A DNA stretch of 38,201 nt from a virus. This document shows, one piece after another, positions 6,907 through 34,826 of this stretch. Each line of letters starts with the position of its first letter. The stretch's first letter is position 1. Location: IMG/VR virus record IMGVR_UViG_3300024346_000210, positions 1 through 38,201 of that record, one strand, 5' to 3'. The notes beneath the pieces are model-generated. The model saw only the letters and a list, made by a program, of their open reading frames with translations. It had not been told where the DNA came from and searched no databases. The position numbers were made by a program, and so were the translations under genes.

Positions 6907-6914
6907 TATTTATT
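6907..6914 (-). promoter_or_regulatory. Late promoter octamer overlapping a stop codon
   Basis: On the minus strand AATAAATA followed by CAC, 19 bases before the ATG of the 205-aa gene. The TAA stop of the giant gene (6910-6912) lies inside the octamer. A start about six bases downstream would give an RNA that opens almost at the AGGAAG ribosome site. Confidence 0.55.
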
Positions 6915-12900: not shown

Positions 12901-15900
12901 ATTATTATCTTGATTGTCAATAGTCCAATAACGGAAATTAATTGCCGTTTCTTTATTTTCAATCAAGTTATTACAGTTATAAAGGATAAATCTATCGCTA
13001 CCGAGTATATTAACAAATTTTAATTTTTGTCCTGAAGGATCTGCAATAATATTTGCAATATCAAAACCGCTGCGTATTCTTCCTTCTACACTTGGAACAA
13101 TCTTTTTGTTTTTAACCCAGAAATAATAACGCTTGCTAAACGTTTGTGAAATTTTATCATATATGTCTTTTTCAACATACTTGCTATCACCGTATTTTGT
13201 CTGTCCACTATATCCTCTAGAAGTGCCTTCGTTAGTATCGGCTTGGTTATCCCAAGCACTTGGGAGTATTTTTGATTCAACCCATTCGTAAACATCTATA
13301 CTAGCACCTTTTGCTAATGTATTCCAGATATTTTGTGAAAATGTAATTTTACCTTGTCTGTAGTCTAGGAATTTTACTGTGCTTAAATCCCACCATAACT
13401 TTCCTACGTTTTGATCGTTCCAGGCAATGAACTTCTCTTTAGTATTTGCAAAACCTACATTATAACTTGCAGGATCGTAATATGTCTTATAAGACAATTC
13501 TTGTTCTGCAATTCCTGAAATCTTTCCTTGTAAGGGATCAATTATGTCAAGTCTTGTTAACATTTTGTTTTCAACAGTATTATAAAGGAACGATCCTCTA
13601 AATTTCTGTATTGTTATAGGATCAACTGGGCTTCTTAATACACTCCAAGTACTGCTATCTGCATCTTTGATATATACAGCAACTTTACCAGAAAGTGTAC
13701 CGTCAACACTAAGGTTTGGTAGCCCTACCATAATAGTGTCATTTTTAACAAGAATGTTATCACCAAAATCTTTAACATCAAAATTATTATATGTTAGTCG
13801 TTGACCAAATATTAATGAGTCATTTATATTTTCGTATATGAAAACAAGACCACTATCTTCAATTCTTCTTGCATAAGTTGTAAAGCCGCCGTCAAATACT
13901 GTTTCTCCAACCTGCAATACACTTCTTGGATCATTAACATACGTTGATCCAGGCTTCTTATTTTGATACCTATCAAAAGTAGTATCTAAAACTATATCAC
14001 TAGTAGTACCAGTGACTACTAACTGATTACCGTCAAATCCTAATCTAGAACCAAACCCTTCAGCAAGTTCTTTATTAGGACTGTTTAATGTTTGGAATAA
14101 AGTAAATGTTCCGTTAACATTTTTATATACAAAAATTTGTCCTTGTTTTAACTGCGCAGTATTTGTAGAAGATGCTCCAACTGCAATTAAGTTACCATTA
14201 TCAGATACTGCAATAGCATTTCCAAATCCTGTACTGGTCACTGGGGCAGTGAATTCTGTTACATATTCAAAATGCGAGTCGGTTAGGCGATAAATTACTA
14301 ATTTACTAGTTCCGTCGCTGTATTTTGCAATAGTTGCAAAAATACTTCCTGATTCGCTTATATCAAATACAGTACCAAAGTCACTAGTGTTTAAATTAAC
14401 TATACTTGAGTCGTCTCCAGGGAATACAAATCCAGATGTATTTGGAACATATCCAACAAAGTCAGCGTGATCACTAACTAGTTGCCATTTAGAACTATTA
14501 AATTCTTCATTGTTTAAATTAGTTAATGCTTTGTAAAAAGAATCTTGATAAATTACAATTTGGTCAACATAATAAGCCGAAGTATTTCTATAAATTCCTT
14601 TAAAGTTTTTGTTACGGCCTTGCTCCCAATCATATGTGCCAAACTCGTCTTGACCGTTAATAACAAAATATATTCTTCCTTTGCCTGTAGGACTTACTTC
14701 TTGCTTTGCGTCATTTGCGTGTGACTCATTACTGTTAATTGCTAACTTATAAAAATTTTCGTTATTAATTAATTTTACTTGTTTACCTAATCGTCTATCA
14801 GTTTCTCTGTTAGGTAAAATATAACCATTAACTAAATCATATTGATCAGTTTCATTATTGTGTTTATATACAAAGAATGCACCTTCTCTAGTATAAGAAC
14901 TTGCATCTCTACCAACATTTATTGGAATATTATTTACTTCTGCCCAGTCATTGTTTTCTGTACTAGGTACTAGAGAAACTCTTGAAGTTCCTGGTTTAAA
15001 TTCTTCAATCCAAGTTTGGTATTCAACACCTGTTATAAATTCTACTTCGTAGTCTGCAATTTCATCAGTCTCACTATTAAGTGCATAAGTTAATGTAGGC
15101 GGAATTGTTAAGTTTTCTGTATGTTGGAATACTGCTAATTTACCTATGTCGTCGTCGGCTAGTTGTCTTGATTCAGTAGTACCAATTCTTGTTAGAACAG
15201 CACCAACTTGCTTGTATATGAACATAGAAGCTGGAGCTACACCTGTTATATATCGAGTACCAAATGTAAATGTACCTGCAACATTTTTAACATAAATTCT
15301 AACTTGATCACCGTCACGTTGATAATAAACTACTTCTGCTGTTGCTCCTGTTTCGCCTTCTCTAATAATATCCCCAACTTCTAAATCCAAAGTTAGGTCA
15401 AACACATCATAATCAATATATCCGTCCCATAAATCTACTGGAACTGTTGTTTGATTTATAATATTGAAAACATCTGTACCAAATCCTTTGTTTGTCAAGT
15501 CTGGAGTGTTTCCATCAGATGATGGAAGATCGTTTAAGAACACACCAACATACGGATTAGGAGTAGACGCATTAGCAAATGCTGATGTTGCTTTATCAGA
15601 CACTGCTTTAGGTATTCTAACAACATAGCGTGAATCTAACACATCGGTCTCAGTAACTACTCCTGCAACACCTTGACTTTTATGACTTAACACTCTAATT
15701 AAGTCAACTTCTTTTTGGAATGGTTGGTCAACACCAACAAGTATTTGAACAGGATTGTCTAATGCATTTTGTATGCTACTTTTGTACGGTAATAGTGCTG
15801 CACTTTCAGTCCAGGTAGCGTCCGGCGATGAATAGTTGCTAGGATTATAATTATTTTTTACATCTTTAATAACTAATCCGTAAGCATTATCTTTATGACT

Positions 15901-18900
15901 AGTAGTAGTAGTTACTGACTGCGGAAGTGCTATTTCCCAGAAGCCTCCTAGTACACTACTTCTATCAATTTCGTCGTGCAATGGGCGTTCATAATTACCA
16001 ATTTTAAATTGATCGTTAATAAACAATTCGCCTGTTGCATCAAATACACCATTTTTATCGTTAGCATAAATTACAAGTTTACCTAGTTCGTTACGTGAAT
16101 ATACAACTGTAGCGTTACCAGTAGAAGTAGTTACTCTTACGCCTTCATCAACAATTGATGTAACTGCTGAAGGTACAGTATTGCTTGCTACTACTGTCGT
16201 TTCTCCGCTAGTATAAGTAATATTTCCGCCACCGTCGACTCCAGTCTTAAATATACCCGAAATATCTATAACTTGTATTACGTTGTTATTAATTTGTTTT
16301 ACTGTTCCTACAACAGTATTGTTTTCTTGCCTTATAATATCACCAACATTTACAGCATTAGGAAGATTTCCTGCTAGTGTTAATTCTACAGGAATATCAG
16401 GAATGTTTACAGGATCTAAAACATAAAATACATCAGTAATCTTACGTCTAATAGTATGAACATCAGACGTTAAAAATGTTTTCCAAGGAATGCCAGGTTC
16501 TGTAATATTTCTAAACGGAGTTTCAATTTGTCTTATTGTTCCCTGTATAGTGCCGTCACCTAAATTTAAGTTTCCGGCAGCAGCTCCAATTGGCTGTCCT
16601 GAAAATCCTATATTTGCATTTACTCTTTGTAATAATGCAGAATCTTCATATAACTCAATTTGCTGTGCTGAAATAACTTTAACAAAATATGTTCTGTTTT
16701 CTAAGCCTTTAACACCTTGCTGTTGAATAGTATCATACGGAACATTAACATTACTATTATCAAATTGTCCAGTATCAGGTAACACAATGTTATCATTTGG
16801 TACGTCGGTAATTATTATTGTATCAGCATCAGACAAACCGTGATCTGTTTGTGTAATTAGTTTCATTGGCGATGTCATATCAATTCCAGTAATATTAACA
16901 CCAGAATTATTACCATAAGCATTTGATAAATCATTCCAATCTAAATACAACCTGTCTCCAATATTACTTCCTTCATAAGAATCAATCGGAGCTCTTACTA
17001 AAATATGATCAGTTGACACTGCTAATGGTAAATCACCCATTGCAAGTGTAGAGAAATCTGCATAAGAATTATGAACTTTGTATAGTTCTGAACGCCAGCG
17101 GCTTGCGCTGTCAAAAGAACCAAATACTATATTATCAGTATTACCTTTTACGCTTCTTCTTGATTTATATAGTCCACCTTCATATTGTACAATAGCACCT
17201 AATTTATAATCACTTGTGAGTGTAAAGTTGTCTTTAAATGCACTTTTAACATATGTTGCCTCTGGAGCACCAACAACAATATATTCTCCATCTGGACTCA
17301 TTGCAACACTAGATCCAAACTTACTTGCGCCGTTGTCAAAGTTTGTAATTGGTTCTAGTGTTTGGTGTGGTTGCAGTGTTCCATAAACTGTGCTGCCATC
17401 CTGCTGTCGCTTGTATATGTGAACTTTGCCTTCACTATTTTCTGGAGAGCCAATAGCAACAAAAGTGTTTGTAGTATCAGCAGCAATTGATTTACCAAAA
17501 CTTGTATTTGATTGTGTTGGATTTATAACATCTTCATCTAAATCGTATGCAGGAGATGATTGTATTACATTCCATCTACCTTTGTCGTCAGCACTATCAA
17601 TCCAAATCTTTTCCTTAGTTGCAATATCTCTTTGTGCGTACTCATTTGCATCTTCTAATTTAGAAACACGATTGGAAACAAATGTTGTTAAAATTCCTAC
17701 TGTACTGCCGTCTGATTCTTCTACACCTGTAAAAGCTACATCACCTAAGTCTATATCAATTCTATTTACAGAACTACTTAATACTTTATAAAATCCGTTA
17801 AGATCAGTAATATTTTGTATTCCAATAAAGTCGCCTTCTTTAAAGTTGCTTATTTTATCAAGAACTAATGTGCAAGCATTTCCATCAGGTATTGCATCTA
17901 TTATAGTATAGTTTGTATCGATATGTTTGTATACATTCCATTCTTGATCTTCAAATGTTACCCAAACATATTCATTTCTGTCAAAATCTGTTATATCTAA
18001 ATTTAAAATTTCATCTTTATTAGTTACAATAAAATTAACATCATCTTCTCTTACATATCCAGCAGTTTTAATCGGAGTTTCTTCAACATATGCTGTTGGA
18101 AATGGCTTTCCGTTATAATCTTTAGGAGCAACATATACACTAGACGGTAATTGACGGTATATTAAATCTGAAACATCATCAGGTATTATACTTGTTAATA
18201 ATATTGGCTGAGGACTTAATCTAAATTGTTCTTCGTCTAATAAAAATTCAAGTTCTTCATATCCGTCAGCTGCACCGTACTGTCCTGTTCTAACAGCCCA
18301 CTCTTCATAAAAATTTAAACTTTCTTTATCTACTGCGCCGAGTGCATCAAACAGTTTAGTTAATGCGTTTTTAGTACCTTTGTCAGCAATAAAACCTTGA
18401 TAAAATTTATACTGACTAACATCGTCATTAATAATATTTGCTAGATAATCACGCTTTTGATAACCAATTAAATGCTGTGCAACTTCTTGCTGACTAACAT
18501 CAAAGTTATCAGTGTCTAAATCGTAGAAGTCTGCAAACTGATTAGTTTTGTATTCTAAATTAGTTAATAGTCCCGGAGTTGGTTTTTCATCTAATCTATA
18601 CCAGTTCTTAGAAACAAATACTTCGCTACCAGTTATTTTTTTAGTTGCAGTGTAATAGTATTCTTTGTATTTAACTACGTCACCAATTGCATAATCTTTC
18701 CAAGGTGTCCATTCTGTTACTACTGCTTGGTCGTATATAAATCCTGGAATATTTAATCCACCAGACCAATCAGCAGTTCTGTATCCTAATACACGAATTC
18801 TTTCTTGTCTATAACCAGGTTCTAGATCGTAAATAGTGTCCTTAAACGCTGTTTCATTATCTAAAATTACTACGTGTTCTTTTTGAACTAATGGAAGTTT

Positions 18901-21900
18901 TATTGCGTAAATTCCGTCAGCAGTATTTTTAACAGTGAATAAAAACTCATTGTCGTTAGTTCTTAAAATATTACAAAATTCTGATTTTAGTTTAGTTCCG
19001 TCTGCCTTTACAAGTCCGTAATCATAAAATGTATCAAATACGTCATCAACAACTGCATCACTACGTTTAAACTCAATTCGCTGAGCCGACGGGCTTACTG
19101 TAAGTAAGGATCCGGTATCCCAATTCTGTAAAGTCCAGAATAAAAATTCTTTTGAACTTAATTTCCAATTTTCAATTTGTTCTAAATTACTATTAAAATT
19201 GTTAAAAACAAAACCTTGATCTAATAAATGCTCGCCGTATCCTAACAAAAAGTCTACAACAGCTTGACTATCAGGTAGTACAGATCCGTATGGTAATTGT
19301 TGTACAAAAGTTTTATCAAACTTTGATCTAAATATTGCAGATCTTCCGCCAGTAACTGGCAAGCTAGGCAATCTAGCGAATTTAGATGTATCAAAGTTTC
19401 CAGTACTAGTATGTGTTTCTTTAGTTCTATAATAAGCATTATTATACTCAACTATTGAACTTTCAGTATACCGTTTTCTTTCAGCCCATTGAATATACGA
19501 AGCACTAATGCCGCCAACACTGACTGTTGGGTCTTTTTCGTTTTTATCAAACTTATAATATTTAAAAGCAGGGTTAGTTACATCATATCCTCTAATAACA
19601 TATCCTGATGATATTTTTTCTACAACAACACCGCTATAAGTAACAATTTCAATAGGACTACTTGTTTGTAACGTTACATTATAATTTTCTTCTGGAATAA
19701 AAACGTTGCCTTCATTTAAAGGTGTTCTAGAATCAAGTATTAAATTAAATTTAGACTTATCAGTGAATCCGCCTATTTTAAATGCCATTTGATTTGTAAT
19801 ACTTTTTATATTATTTTGATAATTTTGATAGTTAACTAAAATATTACTTGCAAGGTAGTTTGAAATAAAGTTTATAAATCCAGAACTATATACACGATTA
19901 GCAGTTTCTTGCGCTGAGTTATTAGGAAATACTAAGTCTTGTAGACGCAGTCTTTTGTTAGTTTGAGAATAAACTAACTGTCCGGCACTATTTCTAATTG
20001 TGCGCAATCTATCAAAACCTAAACCTATAATTTTTGAAGGTTGATTTAAAATCCAAGATTTAAATAACGAGAAAGGATAATCTGAACTTTTCCTCCAAGC
20101 AGTTTCAACAGGAGCTTCGTCACCAAACTTAAATGGTTGACGAGTTAACGCATTTACATAGTCACGAGCATAGCCGCTATCTAAAGGACTTAATAACTCT
20201 CCTTGTCCATTAACTGGCAAATTTGAAGTTAAGTTTGGTCTAATGTATTTTTTTAATATTACTTTTGCTTTGTTAGGCTCATTAATTATACCCTTTTCTA
20301 AATCAGACCACATAACATCATTATTACTAGTATAAGGAGCAGGCCCATATTGTGTTTCCCACCAACTTGGTTTAATATTAAAACCTAACATTTCCCAAGG
20401 ATGAGTATGCGGCCTATCAGTATCATAAGCCTGATTATATATTGCTCGCCAGTAGCCTGGTAATATTGTTCCAGTTGGGGACGTCATTGAGCTATAGTTA
20501 TAAGTAAATCTGTCTTCTCTATTATAAAAACTCGAATCAGTATAATCAACATTGCCAACAGTGTTTAGCCAAGATGCAAAATCTTTTAACATTGTGTTGT
20601 TTATAGAATCAAAGGATATTCCGGTTGTTCTAGCTGCGCCTGGAATAAAACTATGAATATCAATTAAATTACTGTTATACTGTACTTTTAAATTGTTATA
20701 AATTCTCTTTTCAAGTTCTAGTATTAAGTCATCTCTATAGTCATTAAACGCAGCAGTAATCGACCCATCGTGGCCTTGAATAACTGTCTGGGGTGTTGCA
20801 TAAGAACTGTCAACAAACAGTTTTGGTTCAAATTTTGGATATAAACCTAACTTTGTTGGAGTCGGCGGAACATAAGAACCGTCAGTTGTTTCGAATTCAA
20901 ATATAGTAATTTTATCAGTGGATTCTAGTGTAGTAGTAATTTCACAAAAACCATCTGCATTAAATGTATAATCCTTATCGTAAGTTAATTGTACATCATT
21001 TAAGTAAACGTTAACAGCTAATATGCTAGGAACAGTGATGTCAAATGCTTGTGTAAGTGCATAATATACATTACCTGGTATAGCATCATAGTCAAGTCTT
21101 CTTGCTGCGCCAGTTGGAACCATATCACTAAAGTAAAATGGTAAGTTACTTGTTTTGTTTTTGTTTAACTCTTTAAAAATTAAATCAACGTGTGCTTTAG
21201 GTGTACCGTCAAATCCTAATCCTAATGATGTTTGTAAAAATAATCTTTTAAATTTTGCGTATTCTCTTCTAGCAAAATCCATAGACTTAATAATATTTGC
21301 ACTCTTATCTGTAATATGATAAAGTGATAAATTAGTCGGTCCACTATGTTGTAAGAATCTTCTACCATATTGTGCAGCGTTGCTAATATCACGTAAATTT
21401 CCTGGTCCAGGATAAGTTCCAAAAAATTCATCTGTTTCTTGTACTATAGTAGAAACGTGTTCGTTAACTTCGCCTAATGTAAATGTTGTTACATCGTTGT
21501 TTAATGGATTGCGTTCTAAGTTTCCAGCAATTTCATATATACCATTTTCATTTTTGGTTGTAGCAGAACGTGTTCTTAGTACTACAATATCATTTTCATT
21601 TAATGGATTATTAAATCTTACTGTTGCAATTGTTCCTATGTTTACAATTTCATAGTCTATGTTAACAAATTTAAGATTGTTATTTACTGTAATTCGAATA
21701 TTTAAATCTTCAAGTATACTGCTGTTGTCGTATACATCTACTGCAAAATCTGTTTGGTTTGTATTAGCAACATACTGACGTAACACACGCTGAGTACTTT
21801 CAGTATTTGCTTTGATCCATCCGTTAACACTATTGTAATTATTTCTAGACGAGTAGTTATGTAACACACATACATCAGTGCCTTGTGTTACTGTTGCTAA

Positions 21901-23784
21901 AGATGTATCTGTATACGTGAACGTGTCTAATAATAGATCAAAGTTAAAAACTAAATCTCCAATATTTTGTATACTTTTATAAGATAACGGAAATCCTAAT
22001 TCACTGTCGGTAATTCCTGTACCAGTTTTATAAGAAAATAATTTAGTTCCGTTAAATGTTGAATTAGGATACATTGACGGATCTGCGTAACTATCACCTA
22101 CATCATCAAATAGATCAAATAGTGGTGACTGATTAACTTGTGTTTTTTCTTGCGTTAAATTCCACGAAGTTCCATTATAGTAAAACATTTTTCCTTGGTA
22201 TGCTTCACCTTGTAATGCTAATACTGTTTCGTTTTCTAAAGGATTAGAATCAGACTCTTCAACTAAACTTATTTGTCTACGACCTTTATGTCTAACAAAT
22301 TCAATTTTATAAATTTTACCTGCTTCTCGAATATCTTCGTCAGCAGTAAACAATACACGCATACCATTTACAAGATCTATTCCGTCAACATTATATCCTA
22401 AAGATCCTTCAATTATTGAAAATATATCTTTAGTAAATGTATCAATAACATCTACGTTCTTTTTGTTGCTTGTTCCAAAATTAAATAATTTTAATCCTGC
22501 TTCAAATTCAACAATTGGTCTAGTAGCTCTAGCACTTTGATCAGCACTTACAGTTTGTCCATTTGCTATTGCAGATGCTTCAATTACATCTTTATGGAAC
22601 CATCTATTATATCTGGTCCACATATTTTTATCAAGACTTCCGCGATTAATTACGATATAATCTTTTGCAGTTGGGTATCCGTTAGCATTTGCAAATGGTA
22701 ATCTATCAAATGCATTTGTATCAAACGGAACATCTTTATTGTCTGCATACGATCCAGGTATTTCTAAACTAGACTCTTTTATTAATTTAATAGAACTGCC
22801 AACGCCCTCTACATACCAATCACCCTCTGCATACTCTGCAGGAGTTACAAATCCTGCAAAAGATATTTTCATACCATTTGAAAGTACTGTACCTTGAGAT
22901 GATTTATATGTTGTTTTACCTAATACTTCTTTTTCGACATCAATTTCTGTATTTTCTTCAATATCTTTAATTTGTATTAGACCAGTATTATTAATATCAT
23001 TTTCAGCAACATAGTATAATACTTCAGGAGTAGAATTGCCAACTGTAAATGTTATTTTTCCTTTTTCTACGGCTTGCGCACTCACTCCATCGTCATAGTT
23101 AAAACTTTCTTCTAGCGTTCTTTTTGTTTTAATAGTAATTGGGGTACCAACTGCATCTACATCAAATGTATATGTTTGGCCTCTATACAAAATTAGTGTT
23201 GGATTATTGACTAATTCATCTGTACTAAAACTATATGTAACATTGTCTACATTATTAATAAGTTTAACAGCAATAGTACTTTCAACACCACGTTCTTGTC
23301 CTGCAATTCTTACAGTTTGTGGACCATACGGTAACCAATAATACTCACGAAAGTTACTAAACTTATCCCAATCAATATGAGGATTCCACGCATAAAATTC
23401 TTGTGAATTTAATATATCTTGATTTTGAACGTTACCGCCAAAACTGCTAATTTGATTTAAGTAGTCATTGTAATCTTTATAAAAAGTTACATTGTCTAAA
23501 TTGTCTTTAATTATTGTTGCTGGTTCAAACTGATAGTTTTCTCTGTTCGTTGACACATCGCCAACGTAGTTGTCGTCGGCATTATATGCTTTTGAAATTT
23601 GTCTGCCGTAATAACCATTTAGCTTTTCAGCAACTCCTGGTTGAGTAAGCTGATCTAATGTTGCTTGTAAAAACTTTTTATTCGTTTCTGTTCTAAAAAA
23701 TCGAGGTAGTAAAGATTCACTTTTTCTGTTATTATTACCTTCTGCTGGCAACGGATATTCATTCTGATCGTTGTCGTATGACAT
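6910..23784 (-). CDS. Giant mosaic baseplate/tail protein (5,624 aa)
   Basis: One unbroken frame of 16.9 kb, starting at an ATG that overlaps the gp6 stop (TAATG). N-terminus (1-180): FYKDYNDYLNQ, W-N-P-H-I-D-W, YYWLPYGPQTVRI. Residues 190-272: cupredoxin-like fold lacking metal ligands. About 1,130-1,240: YWRAIYNQAYDTDRPHTHPW and KPSWWETQYGPAPYTS. Four CBM5/12-like motifs at about 1,435, 1,691, 2,183 and 3,060. FG-GAP-like blades at 2,090-2,176 and 3,136-3,375. GxGY repeats near 3,770, 3,810, 4,115 and 4,155. An inserted domain lies at 4,484-4,790. C-terminus: FRLFKDMLNRTHYKRL, GERIEYF, LHRGTLGTG, IFVGGRRLRKN. Several of these blocks recall giant structural proteins of marine T4-like phages. 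There is no signal peptide or membrane span. By position it stands where T4 has gp7, the peripheral baseplate wedge (about 1,030 aa), so a wedge scaffold enlarged by adhesive modules is my inference. A long side fibre is the alternative. Confidence 0.8.
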   Translation of the reverse strand: MSYDNDQNEYPLPAEGNNNRKSESLLPRFFRTETNKKFLQATLDQLTQPGVAEKLNGYYGRQISKAYNADDNYVGDVSTNRENYQFEPATIIKDNLDNVTFYKDYNDYLNQISSFGGNVQNQDILNSQEFYAWNPHIDWDKFSNFREYYWLPYGPQTVRIAGQERGVESTIAVKLINNVDNVTYSFSTDELVNNPTLILYRGQTYTFDVDAVGTPITIKTKRTLEESFNYDDGVSAQAVEKGKITFTVGNSTPEVLYYVAENDINNTGLIQIKDIEENTEIDVEKEVLGKTTYKSSQGTVLSNGMKISFAGFVTPAEYAEGDWYVEGVGSSIKLIKESSLEIPGSYADNKDVPFDTNAFDRLPFANANGYPTAKDYIVINRGSLDKNMWTRYNRWFHKDVIEASAIANGQTVSADQSARATRPIVEFEAGLKLFNFGTSNKKNVDVIDTFTKDIFSIIEGSLGYNVDGIDLVNGMRVLFTADEDIREAGKIYKIEFVRHKGRRQISLVEESDSNPLENETVLALQGEAYQGKMFYYNGTSWNLTQEKTQVNQSPLFDLFDDVGDSYADPSMYPNSTFNGTKLFSYKTGTGITDSELGFPLSYKSIQNIGDLVFNFDLLLDTFTYTDTSLATVTQGTDVCVLHNYSSRNNYNSVNGWIKANTESTQRVLRQYVANTNQTDFAVDVYDNSSILEDLNIRITVNNNLKFVNIDYEIVNIGTIATVRFNNPLNENDIVVLRTRSATTKNENGIYEIAGNLERNPLNNDVTTFTLGEVNEHVSTIVQETDEFFGTYPGPGNLRDISNAAQYGRRFLQHSGPTNLSLYHITDKSANIIKSMDFARREYAKFKRLFLQTSLGLGFDGTPKAHVDLIFKELNKNKTSNLPFYFSDMVPTGAARRLDYDAIPGNVYYALTQAFDITVPSILAVNVYLNDVQLTYDKDYTFNADGFCEITTTLESTDKITIFEFETTDGSYVPPTPTKLGLYPKFEPKLFVDSSYATPQTVIQGHDGSITAAFNDYRDDLILELEKRIYNNLKVQYNSNLIDIHSFIPGAARTTGISFDSINNTMLKDFASWLNTVGNVDYTDSSFYNREDRFTYNYSSMTSPTGTILPGYWRAIYNQAYDTDRPHTHPWEMLGFNIKPSWWETQYGPAPYTSNNDVMWSDLEKGIINEPNKAKVILKKYIRPNLTSNLPVNGQGELLSPLDSGYARDYVNALTRQPFKFGDEAPVETAWRKSSDYPFSLFKSWILNQPSKIIGLGFDRLRTIRNSAGQLVYSQTNKRLRLQDLVFPNNSAQETANRVYSSGFINFISNYLASNILVNYQNYQNNIKSITNQMAFKIGGFTDKSKFNLILDSRTPLNEGNVFIPEENYNVTLQTSSPIEIVTYSGVVVEKISSGYVIRGYDVTNPAFKYYKFDKNEKDPTVSVGGISASYIQWAERKRYTESSIVEYNNAYYRTKETHTSTGNFDTSKFARLPSLPVTGGRSAIFRSKFDKTFVQQLPYGSVLPDSQAVVDFLLGYGEHLLDQGFVFNNFNSNLEQIENWKLSSKEFLFWTLQNWDTGSLLTVSPSAQRIEFKRSDAVVDDVFDTFYDYGLVKADGTKLKSEFCNILRTNDNEFLFTVKNTADGIYAIKLPLVQKEHVVILDNETAFKDTIYDLEPGYRQERIRVLGYRTADWSGGLNIPGFIYDQAVVTEWTPWKDYAIGDVVKYKEYYYTATKKITGSEVFVSKNWYRLDEKPTPGLLTNLEYKTNQFADFYDLDTDNFDVSQQEVAQHLIGYQKRDYLANIINDDVSQYKFYQGFIADKGTKNALTKLFDALGAVDKESLNFYEEWAVRTGQYGAADGYEELEFLLDEEQFRLSPQPILLTSIIPDDVSDLIYRQLPSSVYVAPKDYNGKPFPTAYVEETPIKTAGYVREDDVNFIVTNKDEILNLDITDFDRNEYVWVTFEDQEWNVYKHIDTNYTIIDAIPDGNACTLVLDKISNFKEGDFIGIQNITDLNGFYKVLSSSVNRIDIDLGDVAFTGVEESDGSTVGILTTFVSNRVSKLEDANEYAQRDIATKEKIWIDSADDKGRWNVIQSSPAYDLDEDVINPTQSNTSFGKSIAADTTNTFVAIGSPENSEGKVHIYKRQQDGSTVYGTLQPHQTLEPITNFDNGASKFGSSVAMSPDGEYIVVGAPEATYVKSAFKDNFTLTSDYKLGAIVQYEGGLYKSRRSVKGNTDNIVFGSFDSASRWRSELYKVHNSYADFSTLAMGDLPLAVSTDHILVRAPIDSYEGSNIGDRLYLDWNDLSNAYGNNSGVNITGIDMTSPMKLITQTDHGLSDADTIIITDVPNDNIVLPDTGQFDNSNVNVPYDTIQQQGVKGLENRTYFVKVISAQQIELYEDSALLQRVNANIGFSGQPIGAAAGNLNLGDGTIQGTIRQIETPFRNITEPGIPWKTFLTSDVHTIRRKITDVFYVLDPVNIPDIPVELTLAGNLPNAVNVGDIIRQENNTVVGTVKQINNNVIQVIDISGIFKTGVDGGGNITYTSGETTVVASNTVPSAVTSIVDEGVRVTTSTGNATVVYSRNELGKLVIYANDKNGVFDATGELFINDQFKIGNYERPLHDEIDRSSVLGGFWEIALPQSVTTTTSHKDNAYGLVIKDVKNNYNPSNYSSPDATWTESAALLPYKSSIQNALDNPVQILVGVDQPFQKEVDLIRVLSHKSQGVAGVVTETDVLDSRYVVRIPKAVSDKATSAFANASTPNPYVGVFLNDLPSSDGNTPDLTNKGFGTDVFNIINQTTVPVDLWDGYIDYDVFDLTLDLEVGDIIREGETGATAEVVYYQRDGDQVRIYVKNVAGTFTFGTRYITGVAPASMFIYKQVGAVLTRIGTTESRQLADDDIGKLAVFQHTENLTIPPTLTYALNSETDEIADYEVEFITGVEYQTWIEEFKPGTSRVSLVPSTENNDWAEVNNIPINVGRDASSYTREGAFFVYKHNNETDQYDLVNGYILPNRETDRRLGKQVKLINNENFYKLAINSNESHANDAKQEVSPTGKGRIYFVINGQDEFGTYDWEQGRNKNFKGIYRNTSAYYVDQIVIYQDSFYKALTNLNNEEFNSSKWQLVSDHADFVGYVPNTSGFVFPGDDSSIVNLNTSDFGTVFDISESGSIFATIAKYSDGTSKLVIYRLTDSHFEYVTEFTAPVTSTGFGNAIAVSDNGNLIAVGASSTNTAQLKQGQIFVYKNVNGTFTLFQTLNSPNKELAEGFGSRLGFDGNQLVVTGTTSDIVLDTTFDRYQNKKPGSTYVNDPRSVLQVGETVFDGGFTTYARRIEDSGLVFIYENINDSLIFGQRLTYNNFDVKDFGDNILVKNDTIMVGLPNLSVDGTLSGKVAVYIKDADSSTWSVLRSPVDPITIQKFRGSFLYNTVENKMLTRLDIIDPLQGKISGIAEQELSYKTYYDPASYNVGFANTKEKFIAWNDQNVGKLWWDLSTVKFLDYRQGKITFSQNIWNTLAKGASIDVYEWVESKILPSAWDNQADTNEGTSRGYSGQTKYGDSKYVEKDIYDKISQTFSKRYYFWVKNKKIVPSVEGRIRSGFDIANIIADPSGQKLKFVNILGSDRFILYNCNNLIENKETAINFRYWTIDNQDNNIHTEYQIITDGLETSRPKSIIEQKWFDSLVGQDLYHRPVPDPTLSVKQKYGNLNRPRQSWFVNRVEALKEVIERVNRVLESQLAIDNLNLTKLSEKDPIPTLLSGQYDEAIDTEAELRLVGTVRATQAQLEAVVVDGTVTKINIVNAGRGYRNPPNIIVTGTGEDLELQVVLNNIGAISSVNIIDGGTNYQDNITLAVRPLTALVRADSTLGGIWSLYAWDSVNRNWTVSKQQYYDVSQYWEYKDWYATGYSELTSFDYLIDDYYELNVINDSIGDIVKISNVGTGGWILLEKIINIDTPDYTTGYKTVARQNGTIKFLEKTYTSEEGKTELRKILETIRDDLFVDELANEYNQLFFASLRYVLSEQNYADWLFKTSFVKAKHNVGQLIEKTTYQNDNLPSFEEYTNEVKPYKTKIREYLSAYEKTDNTQSVVTDFELSPFFSVQLGKIVSPQVQITDGVLSGINFDETEYPQKHWIDNFTYGIDKIIVKDGGTGYTEAPSIIIVGGGGTGAKARAFIGSGSVTSVVVTDPGSGYTSTPTVTIIGTQAENSKLPSVSVILKNQKVRTFNVKQKFDRITPNFELFNLPESETFTSTGTELKLGLKYPMDLTRSNIRVFFNNVEALSSEFTYNNEEVLVSDKSYTKEVGYILLNSSKIAGTLIKVEYNKGYELLNAADRISLLYNPETGQYGKDLGQLMDGVDYGGVEVRSFEFGQDAGFDSQPWYTSAWDTYDENFDDESFVTEGLTTSFTLSKPLEEEALYNVYVNTTRVDDPNYDGSTKTYLSDDGSTILALGNPNAIMKTLTTESDEYEVTTDTSGLPVYKVNIQNVDDWEEFFASEGTPAVPAVPAVVADPEYNNGSVIDVVGDGSDFFKREVTTNGVRIMGAGTVGGQTAVPDAWLEKVARMFDLFLDPNGASINETYQRAMIQTLSGDTGTWHEGLPTIQRVARGAGADYTPNFLTDPGVISWNLTDLFDAHVQNDMVWYLNSTGAGYGDGDIDAQEVIEHVFHTLHMHGLTDDIKLYSYLSADWATGPLYAAMEEAFDGGFWDPTGYQVNADDWKTDADAFEVAAKEYLYLLNFSMFEYTELWDGGSLAPEWADSVRTQAGIQANNPLGYAFHNTYIAPVISKPSLATIRSIFGDGNTPAQDDPSLAGASGYVVDILSAGSPEIPAIPGVASDPTITIRKSTSDGSFLPSGAGFDSLIEGGNLQYGTATGLDAGDINIDGDGFVTPTTSKGPEELVPGQLHDTLDLKVYDRAAAGGSAISTRNYVATASQKIFALDILPHNIYSLLVKVNGALLVETDYVIDYNLKIVTLNTGLTLGDRVNIISMAGNGERILDIDYFTGDGNTKIFVTNVVHIDGIQSYITADGVSAKVEVFKTDSSYGELEGLVGIEFVVPPEENSHIFYALYDTNEEDIQRYSEVTVNRFVGDGSTVGYQLDPAPFTKLPLSHNIIVKVNNTILYPGYTQHWYVVPTREYPLDPSQQAPSSLSPDEVDVYLNGNKLLLLNDYNWDFANSQVVLFDNVGETGDDLEIVIPKDRDYQFSQNTRISLASVTGTFEVGETVNVGTGDSTVYSAVVKSYAAGNLVIVGTLAGLVEAVDDDNTLPVTGVTSGATSETILGVDLIEAGDSLVLTQAPNDGDTIDVYKFSRHEIQDIQMETRTNVIRSTLNVGSEDYYDAHRLGRGLVKLRSAALDTAYVWVSLNGELLTPNVDYKLVKLDTYIHIARKLETNDVVQVIHFAATPSNEKFGFRLFKDMLNRTHYKRLNKDNVYTLAEPLNITDKTIVLDNATNITQPSKELNVPGVLFVEGERIEYFTVSNNTLGQLHRGTLGTGPKDTYEAGTECMDQSNSETIPYTDQMVSLIALDDESTQVVLDWVPTKGVNEFEIFVGGRRLRKNAIPSYQFQEVDASGNVITGLIDQNSPEGDTVLQPEFTLAIDDNIATVSLVETPAENSRILVVRKLGKTWQLPGEQLRYADNSIANFIRGATTDLPK
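9412..10334 (-). other. Inserted His-rich domain in the giant protein
   Basis: About 307 residues (4,484-4,790) that are globular and helical in look, unlike the beta-rich surroundings. Motifs include AWLEKVARMFDLFLD, IEHVFHTLHMHG, DWATGPLYAAMEEAFDGGFWDP, KEYLYLLNF and NPLGYAFHNTYIAPVI. It is bracketed by matching linkers, GTPAVPAVPAVVADP before and GSPEIPAIPGVASDP after. Two rows of 60 bases that I counted inside it (from 9,901 and from 10,081) hold 30 and 29 G+C, against 12 in a row from 11,161. Function unknown; the clustered His and Glu residues could bind metal. Confidence 0.65.
13660..14379 (-). repeat. FG-GAP-like propeller blades, second block
   Basis: Residues about 3,136-3,375 of the giant protein. 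Repeated pattern: FG-x-x-[FIL]-x-x-S-x-x-G, then I-x-[VT]-[GI], then G-x-[VI]-x-[VI]-Y. Examples are GFGNAIAVSDNGNLIAVGAS with GQIFVYK, and FGSRLGFDGNQLVVTG with GLVFIYE. The pattern is that of integrin-alpha-like beta-propeller blades. Confidence 0.6.
17257..17517 (-). repeat. FG-GAP-like propeller blades, first block
   Basis: Residues about 2,090-2,176: SFGKSIAADTTNTFVAIGSP with GKVHIYKR, then KFGSSVAMSPDGEYIVVGAP. Two blades only; the rest of the set appears some 960 residues later. Confidence 0.6.
22969..23217 (-). other. Degenerate cupredoxin-like domain
   Basis: Residues about 190-272 of the giant protein: NPTLILYRGQTYTFDVDA, then VGTPITIKT, then GKITFTVG, TPEVLYYVAEND and TGLIQI. It follows the plan of the cupredoxin-like domain common in cyanophage structural proteins, but the usual H-P-F and C/H/M-type ligand positions are replaced (GTP for GHP; AENDINN in the later ligand loop). 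Confidence 0.5.
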
Positions 23785-26700
23785 TAGTAACTTAGTCCTC
23801 CACTTGATGAGCTACTGCTTGAGATATTGCTCGAGACATTGCTTCCTGAAGCACTAACTACTCCTGATGCTTGTGTTGCATCAGCATATATTGCTCCAGT
23901 TGCTTTTAATTTTGACGCTGTTAATGACGATACTACTTCTATATTTTCTACAGTTGCAGAGCTAATAAACACTTCGTCGGCTTCACTTCTTACTTCAAAC
24001 ATACTACCAAAAGATAGTGATTCTTGTATTGGTACAATTACAAATGCTGCAAGATCAGGAGCAAGTTGTGTCATTACATAATTACTAAGTTCTGAAAAGT
24101 AAAATGTATCTCCAAACTCCCAATTTTCAATTGCAAAAAATTCATTTATTGCTGCAATTACATTAGCTTTTAATTCGTTTTCGTTTACAACTCTATCCGG
24201 GTTTTTAACTATTTTAAACATTGCTTTTAAATCATCCGATGCTTCAGTACCAAATAGTACTTTGTACTTAACCGGATGATAAATTACTTCATCTGATATC
24301 GACTTAATTTTGTTAATTTCTTCTCCAAAATTAACATATAAAGTATCTGAACTAGGTGCTAGTGGTCTAGTTTCTATTGCTCCTTGCAAATACTGTCGAT
24401 ATAATGTATCGTATTGCTTTGTAAGCATATATACATCAATAATATTAGAACTACTAGGATCAATTCTACTACTTTCGTCAGCAGCGTGTTCGTATTGGAA
24501 AATGATTTTATCTCTTCCTGAATATGCTCTATAGTCAACTGACAATTCTAATTTTTCTGTTGTTACATTATAAACTTTGAATATGTTTTTATCTATCTGA
24601 TAGAAAACAGAATTATCAGGATAGCTACCTATACCATTATCAGTTATTTCTGCTTCGTTATCTACTACTTGTATGTTTTCAGTTGTTTGATCAACATATC
24701 TAAAATCGTCAACATTGTCAGTTGTAATATATTTCTTTAAGAATATATATTTCTTACTTGCATTAGTAGTAATAAATTTGTCAAATATTTCTGGATCGTC
24801 AACTACGCCGTCATCGTCGCTATCAAAAAACCCTACTTCTATCTTCTTAGAATCAACATAACCTTCGCCGTCTCTGTATTCTTTAACAATTTCCCAATTG
24901 AACGGAACTGTAAATGGTGTTAAGGCATAACCGCTGGCGTCTGGTTGAGTATTAATAGACATTAACGATATTTTGTCTTTTATAATTTGATTAGTTAAAG
25001 GATCATATACTTTATCTGAACTGTCATAATAGAATCTTATTTCTCTGTCACTTTCAAATACATAACGCTGACCTCTATAGGTTATTGTATATGTTTCGCC
25101 ATTGGTTTGAAATAATAGTACCCAACTTGCATCTAAGTTTTGATTAGATAAATCTCCAGTTTTACCAGTACTAAAGTTTGAACGTATATCAAGATCAGCT
25201 TCTAGTATAACACGCCAAGTATTTGTTTGGAAGTCATATCGAAGTCCAAACGTTTTATAAGTAAATATTTGGTCAATTATTTGTGTTTTAATTTGTGTTT
25301 CTACTTCTGTAGTAAACAACGGTTTAATTTCTGTTAACTGAGGAGCTGTTGTTATATCATTATTAATAGGACCTGGAATGATGTCGTTTAGAACAATAGC
25401 ACCCTGTCCGTCATTTGTATTGTTAACTCCAGAACCACTAACGCTTACAACTTTAGTCCATTTATAAGTTGTTGCACCAGGATGATCTGCAGAACCTGCC
25501 ATTATAGTTCCATCAGGCATAAAATGATACCCGGACGGAGCTTCAAATTTAAGCATTGCTCCAGGTTCCAAGTACTGCAACGTTGATGCTGTAAATGTTC
25601 CCGTTTTTAATTTAGAAAAATCTGCATCTGTTAGATAACCTGTAGTTATGTTTTGCGCTCGGGTAACTTGATTCCATCTTGCTCCAATATCGCTAACTAA
25701 TATTTTTGCAAACTGTGCATAGTAAAAGTTTTTAACTTTGTAGTCTTTTAAAATTCTTTCAATTTGAGTTTTAATAATACCTTCAATATCTGTCTTTGTA
25801 TTAAATGTAAATGTCTCTTTATTTGTTAGCGTTTGTGTATAAAGTATTCCATCTTTACCGTATAAGTTAGTTTTACTGTATTTTCCAGTTGCATCTAGCA
25901 AATCGTAATATCGTGATATTCCGCTCGACGTTCTGTTTACACTTTTTACTTTTATAATTTCTTGACTAACTGCTAGTGGTGCTATTTGATAATCTTCACC
26001 TGTAACCATTCTATTTTGTGTATAGTATGTTGCAGGTGCATTTGCTTTTATTTCATTATTTGACTCAGAAGTAGTACCATTGTCAACTGTGTATTTTAAC
26101 GCTAAGCCAATTGTAAGTTTTTCGCTTGTTCCTGTTTTACTTTGATAAGGAATGCTAATTGTAATATTAATTAATTCGTCTGGAGTAATGACGTAATTTC
26201 TATTATCACTAGTTCTATAATATATTTTAAAGTTTCCTTTTGGTAAAGATCCAAAAGTTCCGTCACTAAAAACTAAACTAACTCTATCTTCAACACGAGT
26301 TAATACACTATAAATGTTTCTAATATTTTTACTTAAACTATTATACACAATATTGTTGCCTTCTACAGCATCAACCTTTGTCCATAATTCTGATTCGTTG
26401 CCAAGGTTATCTAATTTATATAACCAAGTATCTGAATTGTTAACATTAATTGCATCAATAGCAACAACTTGATTAGCACTTGGTTTAGAAATATTAAAAT
26501 CGCCTTGATCTAATCTTCCTTGTCTAAAGTGTGCAAAAAATCCTGTGTTATTTGATCCAGCACCCTGACCGTCATCTCTATACAAAAACGCAAAATTACT
26601 TCCTGGTAGAGGAGCTTCTTCAATAATGTTTCCAGAACCAATATCAGTACTAACTATTTCAAACTGTGTAGACTTACCGTCTACACTTTTACTAAAGCCA

Positions 26701-27296
26701 AATACTGGAATATCAGTGTTTGTGCCATTTACTCTATACTGTTCTGCACTTATACCATTAACTGTATCAGTTTTGTTTGGTCTTCCAAAAACTCCATTTG
26801 CTGGTAGTGCTGAATTTAATACTTTAACAAACTGCTCGTACCAGTCTTGATTTGAAATATCGTTCCATACAATAGTCTGTCCTGATAAATTAGTTCCGTT
26901 AGAATCAAATAAATCTTCAGTTGTACTAATTGTTTCAAACTTTAATAATCCGTTGGATGCTTGATTACGTTTAGGATTATAGGAAAGCAATCTTGCTAAA
27001 CGTAATACGCTTTCACGGCGTTCTGCTAATTCTAAAAAGTTTTCACGGGCATTTAAATCAATTCGAAAACTAATATTTTGACCTAAGAAAGCAATAAGAT
27101 CAATTAATGCCAAGTATTCACTTGACTCTACATAGTCATTAAAATCTTCTGGATAGTTTTCTCGTAAATATGAGATCATTGTTCTGCGAAGATTGTCAAA
27201 GTCATAGCTTTGAAAATCCGCATTGCGGAATGACTGGTAAACACGCTTCCAATCTTCTGCTAATAATAGTCTGTTTTGTCTGTCGGTTGTTGACAT
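23784..27296 (-). CDS. gp6: Baseplate wedge subunit gp6
   Basis: 1,170 aa. The first 120 residues carry the gp6 hallmark: DWKRVYQSFRNADFQSYDF, MISYLRENYPEDFNDYVES, LALIDLIAFLGQ, DLNARENFLELAERRESVL, then LLSYNPKRN. In T4, gp6 dimers link the wedges into the ring around the hub and belong to the baseplate-J-like family. It is much longer than T4 gp6 (660 aa), as in marine relatives; the extra part is beta-rich. The C-terminus ends in a Ser-rich tail (NISSSSSSSGG). It starts at ATG 27,294-27,296 after an AGGAAAG site, with a late promoter octamer 26 bases upstream. Its stop overlaps the start of the giant gene. It lies directly after gp25, as is usual in T4-like phages. Confidence 0.93.
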   Translation of the reverse strand: MSTTDRQNRLLLAEDWKRVYQSFRNADFQSYDFDNLRRTMISYLRENYPEDFNDYVESSEYLALIDLIAFLGQNISFRIDLNARENFLELAERRESVLRLARLLSYNPKRNQASNGLLKFETISTTEDLFDSNGTNLSGQTIVWNDISNQDWYEQFVKVLNSALPANGVFGRPNKTDTVNGISAEQYRVNGTNTDIPVFGFSKSVDGKSTQFEIVSTDIGSGNIIEEAPLPGSNFAFLYRDDGQGAGSNNTGFFAHFRQGRLDQGDFNISKPSANQVVAIDAINVNNSDTWLYKLDNLGNESELWTKVDAVEGNNIVYNSLSKNIRNIYSVLTRVEDRVSLVFSDGTFGSLPKGNFKIYYRTSDNRNYVITPDELINITISIPYQSKTGTSEKLTIGLALKYTVDNGTTSESNNEIKANAPATYYTQNRMVTGEDYQIAPLAVSQEIIKVKSVNRTSSGISRYYDLLDATGKYSKTNLYGKDGILYTQTLTNKETFTFNTKTDIEGIIKTQIERILKDYKVKNFYYAQFAKILVSDIGARWNQVTRAQNITTGYLTDADFSKLKTGTFTASTLQYLEPGAMLKFEAPSGYHFMPDGTIMAGSADHPGATTYKWTKVVSVSGSGVNNTNDGQGAIVLNDIIPGPINNDITTAPQLTEIKPLFTTEVETQIKTQIIDQIFTYKTFGLRYDFQTNTWRVILEADLDIRSNFSTGKTGDLSNQNLDASWVLLFQTNGETYTITYRGQRYVFESDREIRFYYDSSDKVYDPLTNQIIKDKISLMSINTQPDASGYALTPFTVPFNWEIVKEYRDGEGYVDSKKIEVGFFDSDDDGVVDDPEIFDKFITTNASKKYIFLKKYITTDNVDDFRYVDQTTENIQVVDNEAEITDNGIGSYPDNSVFYQIDKNIFKVYNVTTEKLELSVDYRAYSGRDKIIFQYEHAADESSRIDPSSSNIIDVYMLTKQYDTLYRQYLQGAIETRPLAPSSDTLYVNFGEEINKIKSISDEVIYHPVKYKVLFGTEASDDLKAMFKIVKNPDRVVNENELKANVIAAINEFFAIENWEFGDTFYFSELSNYVMTQLAPDLAAFVIVPIQESLSFGSMFEVRSEADEVFISSATVENIEVVSSLTASKLKATGAIYADATQASGVVSASGSNVSSNISSSSSSSGGLSY

Positions 27297-27321
27297 ACTT
27301 GCTTTCCTTTATGTGTAACAG

Positions 27322-27329
27322 TATTTATT
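27322..27329 (-). promoter_or_regulatory. Late promoter octamer before gp6
   Basis: AATAAATA followed by CTGTTAC on the minus strand, 26 bases before the gp6 ATG, inside the 61-base gap between gp25 and gp6. This is the best placed of the four copies: a start about six bases downstream leaves a 20-base leader holding the AGGAAAG site. Confidence 0.65.
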
Positions 27330-27357
27330 AAGATTAGATAAGTGCGTATATAATTCT

Positions 27358-32732: not shown

Positions 32733-33032
32733 TTAGTATCCTAAAAATTTTTGTAATTGATCTTGCTTTGGCAAATATATTTTTATACCAGCAACTAAGT
32801 CAAATACAGGATCTTTTAATATGTCCATATTTCGTTGTGCAAAGACCCACCAAAGTTTTGATGTTCCGTAAACTGAATAAGCTAATAAGTCGGGTCTATG
32901 TGTAAACTGTGGTTGTACTTCATACAACACATCGTCATCTTGCTTAGGCACTGGACGAATTGTTAACACATCCAAGTATTGATTATTTTGTATTTTTGTT
33001 CTTCCCCAGGGGCTTTGCGATGAATATGACAT
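32733..33032 (-). CDS. gp53: Baseplate wedge subunit gp53
   Basis: 99 aa, shorter than T4 gp53 (196 aa), which has an extra N-terminal part. The conserved core is visible: QFTHRPDLLAYSVYG, then KLWWVFAQRNMDILKDPVFD and GIKIYLP, the Y-G-x-x-x-x-W-W plus G-x-x-I-x-[IL]-P plan of the gp53 / LysM-like wedge family. In T4 gp53 clamps neighbouring wedges around the hub. The ATG overlaps the stop of the tube-initiator gene (TAATG), and a GGAGGA ribosome site lies just before it. It is followed after one base by the 813-aa gene. Confidence 0.87.
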   Translation of the reverse strand: MSYSSQSPWGRTKIQNNQYLDVLTIRPVPKQDDDVLYEVQPQFTHRPDLLAYSVYGTSKLWWVFAQRNMDILKDPVFDLVAGIKIYLPKQDQLQKFLGY

Positions 33033-33886
33033 TAAATAAATCCTCCACCATTTCCGCCGCCGCCTAAGTAATCACCTTTAACAAAAGAACCTAAACTAAA
33101 CTGTGATACTTTTGCTCTTGAGAATACCGGAGTAACAGTAACAGAAACTTGACTTTGTGCTGGTGCCCATCCAACTAAATCGCCAGTACCTGGATCGCTA
33201 GTTGTAACATCAACTCCTATATCACCTTCAACTTTTGTTTTAATATAATCAACATCTGCAGGTAAGTCAACAGTAAAGTTTCTAATTGCAACAGGAACTT
33301 TTGGAAATACAAAGTCTCCGTAACCAGATAATTTTACAAGGGGCGGAGGTGCTCCGGAATTATCATCTGTTCCGTAATTCATTTTTGTTATACTTCTTAA
33401 GTAGTGTACCATTGCTGTCCAATACTGTGCATCTTTTGCATTTTCGCAGAAAAAATCTCCAGTAATAACAATATCTTCAATTTGGCTGTTTTGGTATTGC
33501 GGAAAGGGATAATTACTATGTACAGGCTGCAATGCATCATAGTTAGCAGTATGTTGAACTAATATTGTAGGAGTATAAGGAAAAACTAATCCATTAGTTT
33601 CTATTAAAGGATCAAAAATTGTACCAGCATCTTTTCCAACAAAGCCCGGCGGCAAACTTAATTTGACACGCCAGTCGTTACTGCCACTAGGCTCTCTAGC
33701 AACTGTCTGTGTTTTTAGTGCAGGCATCGAACTAGGGCCATTTAATAGTGCTTTTAATAGGCCGCCAGCAGGGCCTATAGCATCAAGTGCAGAGTTAGCA
33801 AGTTTGCTTCCTAAACCCTTAGTTGTATTTTCAACAGAGCTTTGGAGGTTTTCTACATTTGATTGTATTATTTTATTTAATGCCAT
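33032..33886 (-). CDS. Tail-tube initiator-like baseplate protein (gp48/gp54 type)
   Basis: 284 aa. After a helical first 50 residues come SNDWRVKLSLPPGF, NGLVFPYTPTILVQHTANY, HSNYPFPQYQNSQIEDIVI with TGDFFCENAKDAQYW, TKMNYG, GAPPPLVKLSGYGDFVF and LPADVDYI. This matches the tube-fold proteins at the base of the tail (T4 gp48 and gp54, 364 and 320 aa), which join hub and tube. The C-terminus is a Gly run (GGGGNGGGF). I cannot choose between gp48 and gp54, and only one of the pair is in the window. It is the first gene of the leftward late block, with AGGAG before the ATG and a late octamer 20 bases upstream. Confidence 0.75.
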   Translation of the reverse strand: MALNKIIQSNVENLQSSVENTTKGLGSKLANSALDAIGPAGGLLKALLNGPSSMPALKTQTVAREPSGSNDWRVKLSLPPGFVGKDAGTIFDPLIETNGLVFPYTPTILVQHTANYDALQPVHSNYPFPQYQNSQIEDIVITGDFFCENAKDAQYWTAMVHYLRSITKMNYGTDDNSGAPPPLVKLSGYGDFVFPKVPVAIRNFTVDLPADVDYIKTKVEGDIGVDVTTSDPGTGDLVGWAPAQSQVSVTVTPVFSRAKVSQFSLGSFVKGDYLGGGGNGGGFI

Positions 33887-33905
33887 TTTGGTAATCTCCT
33901 ATAAG

Positions 33906-33913
33906 TATTTAGT
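33906..33913 (-). promoter_or_regulatory. Late promoter octamer heading the leftward block
   Basis: ACTAAATA followed by CTTATAG on the minus strand, 20 bases before the ATG of the first late gene. It shares base 33,913 with the -35 hexamer of the opposite-facing gp55 promoter. It is weaker than the other copies at the first two positions of the T4 consensus. Confidence 0.5.
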
Positions 33914-33941
33914 TGACAGAATTAAGTATGTAGTTTATAAT
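33913..33941 (+). promoter_or_regulatory. Perfect sigma70 promoter for gp55
   Basis: TTGACA at 33,913-33,918 and TATAAT at 33,936-33,941 with exactly 17 bases between them, both hexamers full consensus. The expected start is near 33,948, leaving a short leader with GGAGA about six bases before the gp55 ATG. This fits early expression by the host RNA polymerase. Confidence 0.85.
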
Positions 33942-33964
33942 AGAGTAATAACCTGGAGAAATAT

Positions 33965-34801
33965 ATGCGTAGAGTAAATTATCTTAATAATAAAGATATG
34001 TTAAAAGAGATACACAAATCAAAAACTAACTTTTGTAGTTATATTGAGCCCGAATATAATCAATATGATATAATTTTATTAGATATTAGTAAAATTAATA
34101 TAAGGACCATTGCAGAAGCTAAAAGAAACAAAGCAAAAAGACTAACACTAGCTGATTTTGAAGCACGTAAACTAGCAGGTGAAAAGGTTAAACAAGCTGA
34201 GTGCGAAGTTGATTACAAAAAAATTACAAAAGAAGAACTAATTTTTAGAATTATGACGTTTGATCATATTCCAGAAGAACCTGGTCGTAAGAAAAATCCT
34301 AAAACAATAGCAGATACAAAAGTTAAGTTAAATTTTCCACCATTTGTGCATTACAAGTTCAACGAAGATGGTGAACTAGTGTTAATCGGAAAGAGTCACT
34401 GGGAAGGTGGGATGGAAAACGGCAACTTTAGTATGAGACACGCTAAAGCAACAGACGAGCTTGCTCGAATGTGGATTAAATTATGTGAAAGGTATGCAAC
34501 AAGGGGAAATGTACGTGGATATACATACAATGACGAAATGCGAGGACAGGCAATCTTACAATTATCACAAATTGGTCTACAGTTTGATGAATCAAAGTCC
34601 AACAATCCATTCGCTTATTACACAGCCGCCGTTACCAATTCCTTTGTCAGAGTTATTAACCTCGAAAAACGAAATCAAAACATTAGAGACGACATACTCG
34701 AGATGAATGATATGAATCCTAGTTACACTAGGCAGCATAATGCTGAATGGGATGCCGCTATGAAAAGAGAACAAGCTGAAAAAGCCGCAAAAAACACTTG
34801 A
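33965..34801 (+). CDS. gp55: Late-transcription sigma factor gp55
   Basis: 278 aa. Residues about 180-245 hold the gp55 core: RGYTYNDEMRGQAILQL, then FDESKSNNPFAYYTAAVTN and SFVRVINLEKRNQ, the region that in T4 corresponds to sigma region 2 and reads the TATAAATA late element. The N-terminal half is basic and longer than in T4 (gp55 is 185 aa). T4 gp55 ends with a short hydrophobic sliding-clamp-binding tail; here the end is a charged AEKAAKNT with no such motif, so clamp coupling may differ. First gene of the rightward block, behind a perfect sigma70 promoter. Its TGA stop lies inside the -35 hexamer of the next promoter. Confidence 0.92.
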   Translation: MRRVNYLNNKDMLKEIHKSKTNFCSYIEPEYNQYDIILLDISKINIRTIAEAKRNKAKRLTLADFEARKLAGEKVKQAECEVDYKKITKEELIFRIMTFDHIPEEPGRKKNPKTIADTKVKLNFPPFVHYKFNEDGELVLIGKSHWEGGMENGNFSMRHAKATDELARMWIKLCERYATRGNVRGYTYNDEMRGQAILQLSQIGLQFDESKSNNPFAYYTAAVTNSFVRVINLEKRNQNIRDDILEMNDMNPSYTRQHNAEWDAAMKREQAEKAAKNT

Positions 34802-34826
34802 CTTTAAGATATAAAGATAGTATTAT
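34798..34826 (+). promoter_or_regulatory. Near-consensus sigma70 promoter for gp47-gp46
   Basis: TTGACT at 34,798-34,803 and TATTAT at 34,821-34,826, 17 bases apart, five of six matches in each hexamer. The gp55 stop codon TGA (34,799-34,801) is part of the -35. The start would fall near 34,833, about 20 bases before gp47. Confidence 0.7.

Follow-up and report, generated by a model that had tools for sequence, protein, structure and literature searches.

The 78-base gap in front of the gene for a gp55-type late sigma factor in an uncultured giant phage holds two divergent promoters, very likely both real, whose elements are interlocked. An early sigma70 promoter directed towards gp55 and a late promoter directed towards the structural genes share one base, and a second, upstream element of the late promoter (the box) lies within the spacer of the sigma70 promoter. 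What is new is this second late element and its interleaving with the early gp55 promoter. It appears somewhat probable that these are two real divergent promoters at a site that is handed over from the host polymerase to the gp55-polymerase.

The DNA analysed, referred to as the window (positions 1-38,201 of the 38.2-kb IMG/VR record IMGVR_UViG_3300024346_000210), is part of the genome of a jumbo myovirus that is related to the phages RaK2, CBB and PA5oct and belongs to a marine giant-phage family. The gap separates a leftward structural gene (33032-33886) from gp55 (33965-34801); a gp53-like wedge gene lies further leftward, and SbcD and SbcC lie on the other side. The same gene order was found in PA5oct, RaK2, CBB, GAP32, XaC1, Vibrio phage 2.275.O and others; Atu_ph07 and Phosso keep it apart from small insertions. 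Ten diverse relatives were tested for the leftward gene, and in each it belonged to phrog_12050. The features discussed below are as follows.

23784..27296, minus strand: baseplate wedge gene, gp53-like, 1170 aa (phrog_10646)
27322..27329, minus strand: late octamer AATAAATA of the wedge gene, in the second copy of the two-element late promoter
27339..27348, minus strand: upstream box TACGCACTTA of the wedge gene, 9 bp from its octamer
33032..33886, minus strand: virion structural protein gene, first in the leftward late block (phrog_12050)
33896..33899, minus strand: Shine-Dalgarno GGAG of the structural gene (from sequence)
33900, minus strand: predicted late transcription start (+1), from T4 late geometry with the octamer at -13 to -6 (PMC1524935)
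33906..33913, minus strand: late octamer ACTAAATA of the leftward structural operon, TATTTAGT on the plus strand (from sequence and conservation)
33913..33918, plus strand: -35 element TTGACA of the early gp55 promoter (from sequence; TTGAC conserved in relatives)
33923..33932, minus strand: upstream box TACATACTTA, within the sigma70 spacer (from matrix and conservation)
33936..33941, plus strand: -10 element TATAAT of the early gp55 promoter (from sequence and conservation)
33948, plus strand: predicted early transcription start, from sigma70 geometry
33955..33958, plus strand: Shine-Dalgarno GGAG of gp55 (from sequence)
33965..34801, plus strand: gp55-type late sigma factor, 278 aa (phrog_12791, phrog_234 and PDB match)
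34798..34826, plus strand: early promoter of SbcD/SbcC, TTGACT-17-TATTAT, separate from that of gp55 (from sequence)

The sigma70 promoter (33913-33941, plus strand) matches the consensus at 12 of 12 positions with a 17-nt spacer, and is the sole perfect TTGACA-17-TATAAT in the window, where 0.10 would be expected. Base 33913 belongs both to its -35 element and to the leftward octamer, the two elements thus overlapping on opposite strands. The octamer alone is unremarkable, with one TATTTAGT-type copy in the AT-rich window against 4.9 expected; under a first-order Markov model of the window, TATTTA(G)TTGAC occurred in 0.014% of random 78-nt gaps and both elements together in none of 51,282. 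The starts predicted from T4 and sigma70 geometry lie about 48 bp apart. The sequence-only reading had described a perfect sigma70 promoter and a leftward octamer that share one base within 78 bases, and these coordinates proved correct, as did the placing of gp55 on one side (phrog_12791, E 5e-80; T4 gp55, E 2.6e-8; fold Z 12.3) and of a structural block, starting with the leftward phrog_12050 gene, on the other. Its view of them as an early and a late promoter is also supported, both being very likely real and their overlap being kept in 130 of 133 relatives, but it missed the second element of the late promoter; this element lies inside the sigma70 spacer, so that the interlock is tighter than was first seen.

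Alignment of the gap across relatives had been suggested as a check of whether the overlap is kept, and was carried out on 168 distinct relatives with upstream DNA, 133 of which, with gp55 about 75-93% identical, form the window's clade. In this clade TATTTAG(T)TGAC, the exact 17-nt spacer and the -10 element are found in 130/133 relatives; the interlocked group is defined by motif match, so its internal identity is no proof and it is this fraction that counts. The 130 comprise 127 full matches and three relatives (L138, L146 and L159) with TATTAT as the -10 element, and the fused block reads TATTTAGTTGAC in 116 of them and TATTTATTGAC in 14. This fraction carries weight because the fourfold-degenerate sites of gp55 are near saturation, being only 0.43-0.46 identical at 60-85% protein identity (0.36 for random), while in the same comparison the box is 0.70-0.73 and TATAAT 0.97-0.99 identical. 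The DNA 3' of the -10 element is only 0.34-0.41 identical among relatives. Such conservation means that the octamer does not stand in the gp55 gap by chance. The interlocked module occurs once per record and at the gp55 site only (26 of 30 records). One relative, L075, carries the full module and also a second TTGAC..TATAAT promoter directly downstream of it, just before gp55.

Several observations indicate that ACTAAATA is a credible late octamer. As in T4-type late promoters, it is close to TATAAATA and lies on the strand of the late gene. Three long contigs of the clade were counted for ..TAAATA just upstream of genes: on the gene's strand there are 14, 25 and 16 copies, where 4.9, 3.1 and 2.2 would be expected, and on the opposite strand 6, 5 and 6. 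These octamers peak 10-30 nt before the start codon, and the ACTAAATA site is at 19 nt. The forms.ATAAATA and.CTAAATA stand before many genes, and ACTAAATA agrees with them in its letters, its strand and how far it lies from the start codon. The late consensus of phage Aeh1 is CTAAATA from -12, i.e. a variant with C at -12 (PMC1524935), and it is this consensus, together with the similar octamers before late genes, that makes ACTAAATA credible as a late octamer.

The 17-nt spacer of the sigma70 promoter is itself conserved (consensus TTAAcTgCGTA on the plus strand), although conservation of spacer sequence is not a sigma70 requirement. Within it stands the box TACATACTTA, which spans about -32 to -23 of the late promoter, upstream of the octamer at a distance of exactly 9 bp. 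A matrix trained only on the gp55-gap site was run on late octamers elsewhere; the only distance from TAAATA that scored was gap 9, and 24 other gaps gave nothing. Gaps in these runs are measured between TAAATA and the edge of the matrix; counted in bases, 9 bp separate the 8-base octamer from the 10-base box at each of the two sites in the window. All three gap-9 matches elsewhere belonged to the baseplate-wedge gene. This gene was fetched from 80 contigs, giving 48 distinct promoters, of which 35 scored at gap 9 and six one base closer (gap 8); no box was found at other gaps among the 48. A letter pattern for the wedge box was chosen post hoc and is not counted as a test, the matrix runs being the tests. 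The wedge site has no sigma70 promoter, and TTGAC is absent from the gap in the wedge promoters (by eye). Thus the sequence within the sigma70 spacer is the upstream box of the late promoter, since the same box recurs at the same spacing before a gene that lacks a sigma70 promoter. In T4, late promoters lack a conserved upstream element (PMC2988020), whereas a subset here carries a box at a fixed 9-bp spacing, found in 41/48 wedge promoters and in the gp55 gap; these are therefore a variant of the T4-type late promoter rather than the T4 form. The box accompanies two or three of about 37 late octamers in the 260-kb contig G031, and thus marks a small class. As far as the search went, it would be the first sign that some gp55-type late promoters exceed the octamer. 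The second two-element late promoter of the window lies within 27296-27357 and is conserved in most of the 48 distinct relatives.

Other origins of the spacer sequence were considered and rejected. It is not part of a general early promoter, as TTGAC-17-TATAAT sites elsewhere in the same contigs do without it and the box survives where the sigma70 elements are lost; it is not a palindromic operator, as the symmetry (AACTACGTAGTT in some relatives) is lost across relatives; and the box is not a free-standing genome-wide repeat, as box-only matches are no commoner than in shuffled sequence. Only the box plus octamer at gap 9 exceeds the shuffled background.

The sequence-only reading had held that relatives with the two elements far apart would speak against it. 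Apart from the 130/133 that keep the overlap, one lineage in the clade (L050, L081 and L112; gp55 90-97% identical to that of L081) has its gp55 sigma70 promoter about 65 bp nearer to gp55, and distant relatives hold the two promoters adjacent and unfused. At the old site of this lineage TTGAC and TATAAT have decayed, the box is kept, and the octamer has the T4 consensus form TATAAATA. Because the octamer takes this form where no -35 element overlaps it, ACTAAATA may be a compromise with the -35 element; the lineage also suggests that the box and the octamer can stand without the early promoter. In the same three relatives a rightward late octamer (ACTAAATA or TATAAATA) is present about 70 nt before gp55.

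In 11 of the 130 interlocked relatives (L036, L047, L064, L069, L070, L071, L073, L139, L170, L177 and L263) a rightward AATAAATA stands 16-20 nt before gp55, fused to the gp55 -10 element so that the two read TATAATAAATA; the late polymerase might re-make gp55 there. No rightward late octamer was found before gp55 in the window.

The distance from the octamer to the -10 element is 24 in the clade and 27 to about 60 bp in distant relatives. By eye, TATTTA and TATAAT are separated by 27 nt in RaK2, 28 in CBB and GAP32, 29 in XaC1, 38 in Vibrio phage 2.275.O and 46 in PA5oct. In RaK2, CBB, GAP32, XaC1 and PA5oct the promoters are back to back but unfused, and in Vibrio phage 2.275.O and the metagenomic relatives of PA5oct the gp55 promoter likewise backs onto a leftward octamer. 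Atu_ph07 has TATTTAGTTGACA without a good -10 element at 17. Fusion thus belongs to the window's clade, and adjacency is older. In the PA5oct-like relatives L268-L311 the DNA from the octamer to the -35 element is also conserved (ATAAACxGCTxxTTTTATxxxGAAAC), possibly a diverged box.

From the sequence, its conservation and the place of the box in the late promoter we infer that both promoters are active and exclude each other sterically, that their use is ordered in time, and that gp55 synthesis is finally shut off. The rightward consensus promoter would allow the host polymerase to occupy the site and make gp55 early in infection. The leftward promoter, of the gp55-dependent type and with octamer and box, would start the baseplate/structural operon. 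As gp55-polymerase accumulates and sigma70 activity drops, the site would reverse direction, the structural operon would then be transcribed and gp55 synthesis would fall. The 9 bp that separate the octamer from the box contain the -35 element, and the box in turn falls between the two sigma70 elements; with the elements interdigitated in this way, neither polymerase could bind without covering elements of the other. Provided that both promoters fire, this geometry makes mutual exclusion nearly forced on steric grounds and simultaneous binding of both polymerases very unlikely, and the site may act as a self-limiting switch for gp55. A strict shut-off is opposed by the promoter moved in one lineage, the unfused distant relatives and the rightward octamer in 11/130. 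Other late genes have promoters that are not overlapped, so the site in the gp55 gap cannot control the whole late programme. SbcD and SbcC need not be silenced when gp55 is blocked, since they have an early promoter of their own; its -35 element overlaps the gp55 stop codon (TTGAC contains TGA), and a similar promoter was found in 100/127 relatives.

The proposed hand-over has to be weighed against other accounts of the overlap. That the leftward octamer is a coincidence and the sigma70 promoter alone is functional would fit the commonness of TATTTAGT-like 8-mers in AT-rich DNA (the 4.9 expected), but it is highly improbable given the near-universal conservation, the correct distance to the structural start codon, the genome-wide enrichment of late octamers, the attached upstream box and the change of the octamer into TATAAATA once freed from the overlap. 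An account in which both promoters are real and clash, with the overlap having no regulatory role, is rather unlikely. Early and late use would then be separated in time, and the fusion would be kept since altering one element breaks the other. The overlap alone can be explained by compaction of the genome, which is compact, with a gap of 78 bp; changes in the shared block affect two promoters, which alone could explain the deep conservation; and the loss in L050, L081 and L112 and the looser spacing in distant relatives show the fusion to be dispensable. This account has difficulty with the offset, which is constant within one base over near-saturated neutral divergence, and with the distant relatives, which have space to separate the pair and still hold it adjacent.

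A further question, compatible with the interlock on any answer, is what binds the box. The gp55-like gene matched phrog_12791 and also phrog_234, the hmmsearch match to T4 gp55 in the PDB was to 7d7c_F, and the predicted fold superposed on 7d7c_F over 120 residues with an rmsd of 3.5; sequence and predicted fold both point to a sigma region 2 homology domain. The protein is longer than T4 gp55 (278 against 185 aa). About 125 conserved extra residues are inserted near the N terminus (residues ~30-157), where sigma70 has its non-conserved region, and the alignment shows a variable C-terminal tail. Upstream DNA is contacted in T4 by gp33, which is seated on the flap (PMC7892883). By its position and conservation the insert is a candidate reader of the box, and it is conceivable, if unlikely, that the promoter has two elements, that the box is recognised by the additional domain of the enlarged gp55 (or by a tightly bound partner), that the early promoter was built inside and that gp55 represses its own gene. 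Alternatively, the box might be an operator for a separate phage regulator, an activator or repressor in a MotA-like position, rather than a contact of the gp55 holoenzyme, which is a serious contender, if slightly short of even. The restriction of the box to a small class (two or three of about 37 late promoters in the 260-kb contig) would suit such a regulator. T4 middle promoters carry a MotA box, and the box here, near -28, resembles it in position. The lack of a conserved upstream element in T4 late promoters (PMC2988020) also agrees with a separate regulator, while the rigid spacing to the octamer (9, sometimes 8) at two unrelated loci fits a single polymerase complex better, and no such protein was identified in the analysis. 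The insert is predicted with confidence to be mixed alpha/beta; a Foldseek search with residues 1-156 gave no convincing PDB match, which does not imply a novel fold.

The limits that phages set on their own late sigma factor are poorly known, and the interleaving of the early promoter of a late sigma factor with a late promoter offers a small, testable design for the hand-over of transcription from host to phage. As in other divergent overlapping promoter switches, the elements themselves overlap (base 33913, and the box in the spacer). In phage lambda, PR and PRM are divergent promoters that share DNA and compete for polymerase. Overlapping divergent promoters also compete for polymerase in the conjugation switch of plasmid pLS20 (PMC4207663). 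Both of these systems depend on a repressor and use one host sigma factor, whereas at the gp55 gap two sigma factors would be used, one direction making the sigma factor of the other. T4-type late promoters (TATAAATA, gp55-dependent) are similar in the octamer, the short leader and the gp55-type sigma factor encoded nearby, and the Aeh1 variant CTAAATA (PMC1524935) matches ACTAAATA. In RB49 and S-PM2, T4-like phages, early sigma70 and late gp55 elements are close together (PMC2984593), but both are thought to serve one gene, replacing middle promoters, while here they diverge. For CBB and GAP32, PMC5259590 reports ATAAATA as the late motif ahead of structural genes, and also an RpoD-like promoter directly preceding the gp55 gene; the passages found make no mention of divergent abutting promoters or an upstream late box. 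The CBB sequence has the same divergent arrangement as here, with promoters adjacent and not fused. No description of the overlap or of the box was found in the open-access papers searched.

Two further reading frames of the window may be mentioned. A leftward ORF of 5624 aa (6910-23784) matches the virion structural family phrog_10938 over its first 1200 aa. A partial ORF at 37851-38201 matches the SegE GIY-YIG endonuclease domain (PF19835, E 4e-34); its best PHROGs family is labelled NAD synthetase, a label that is probably wrong.
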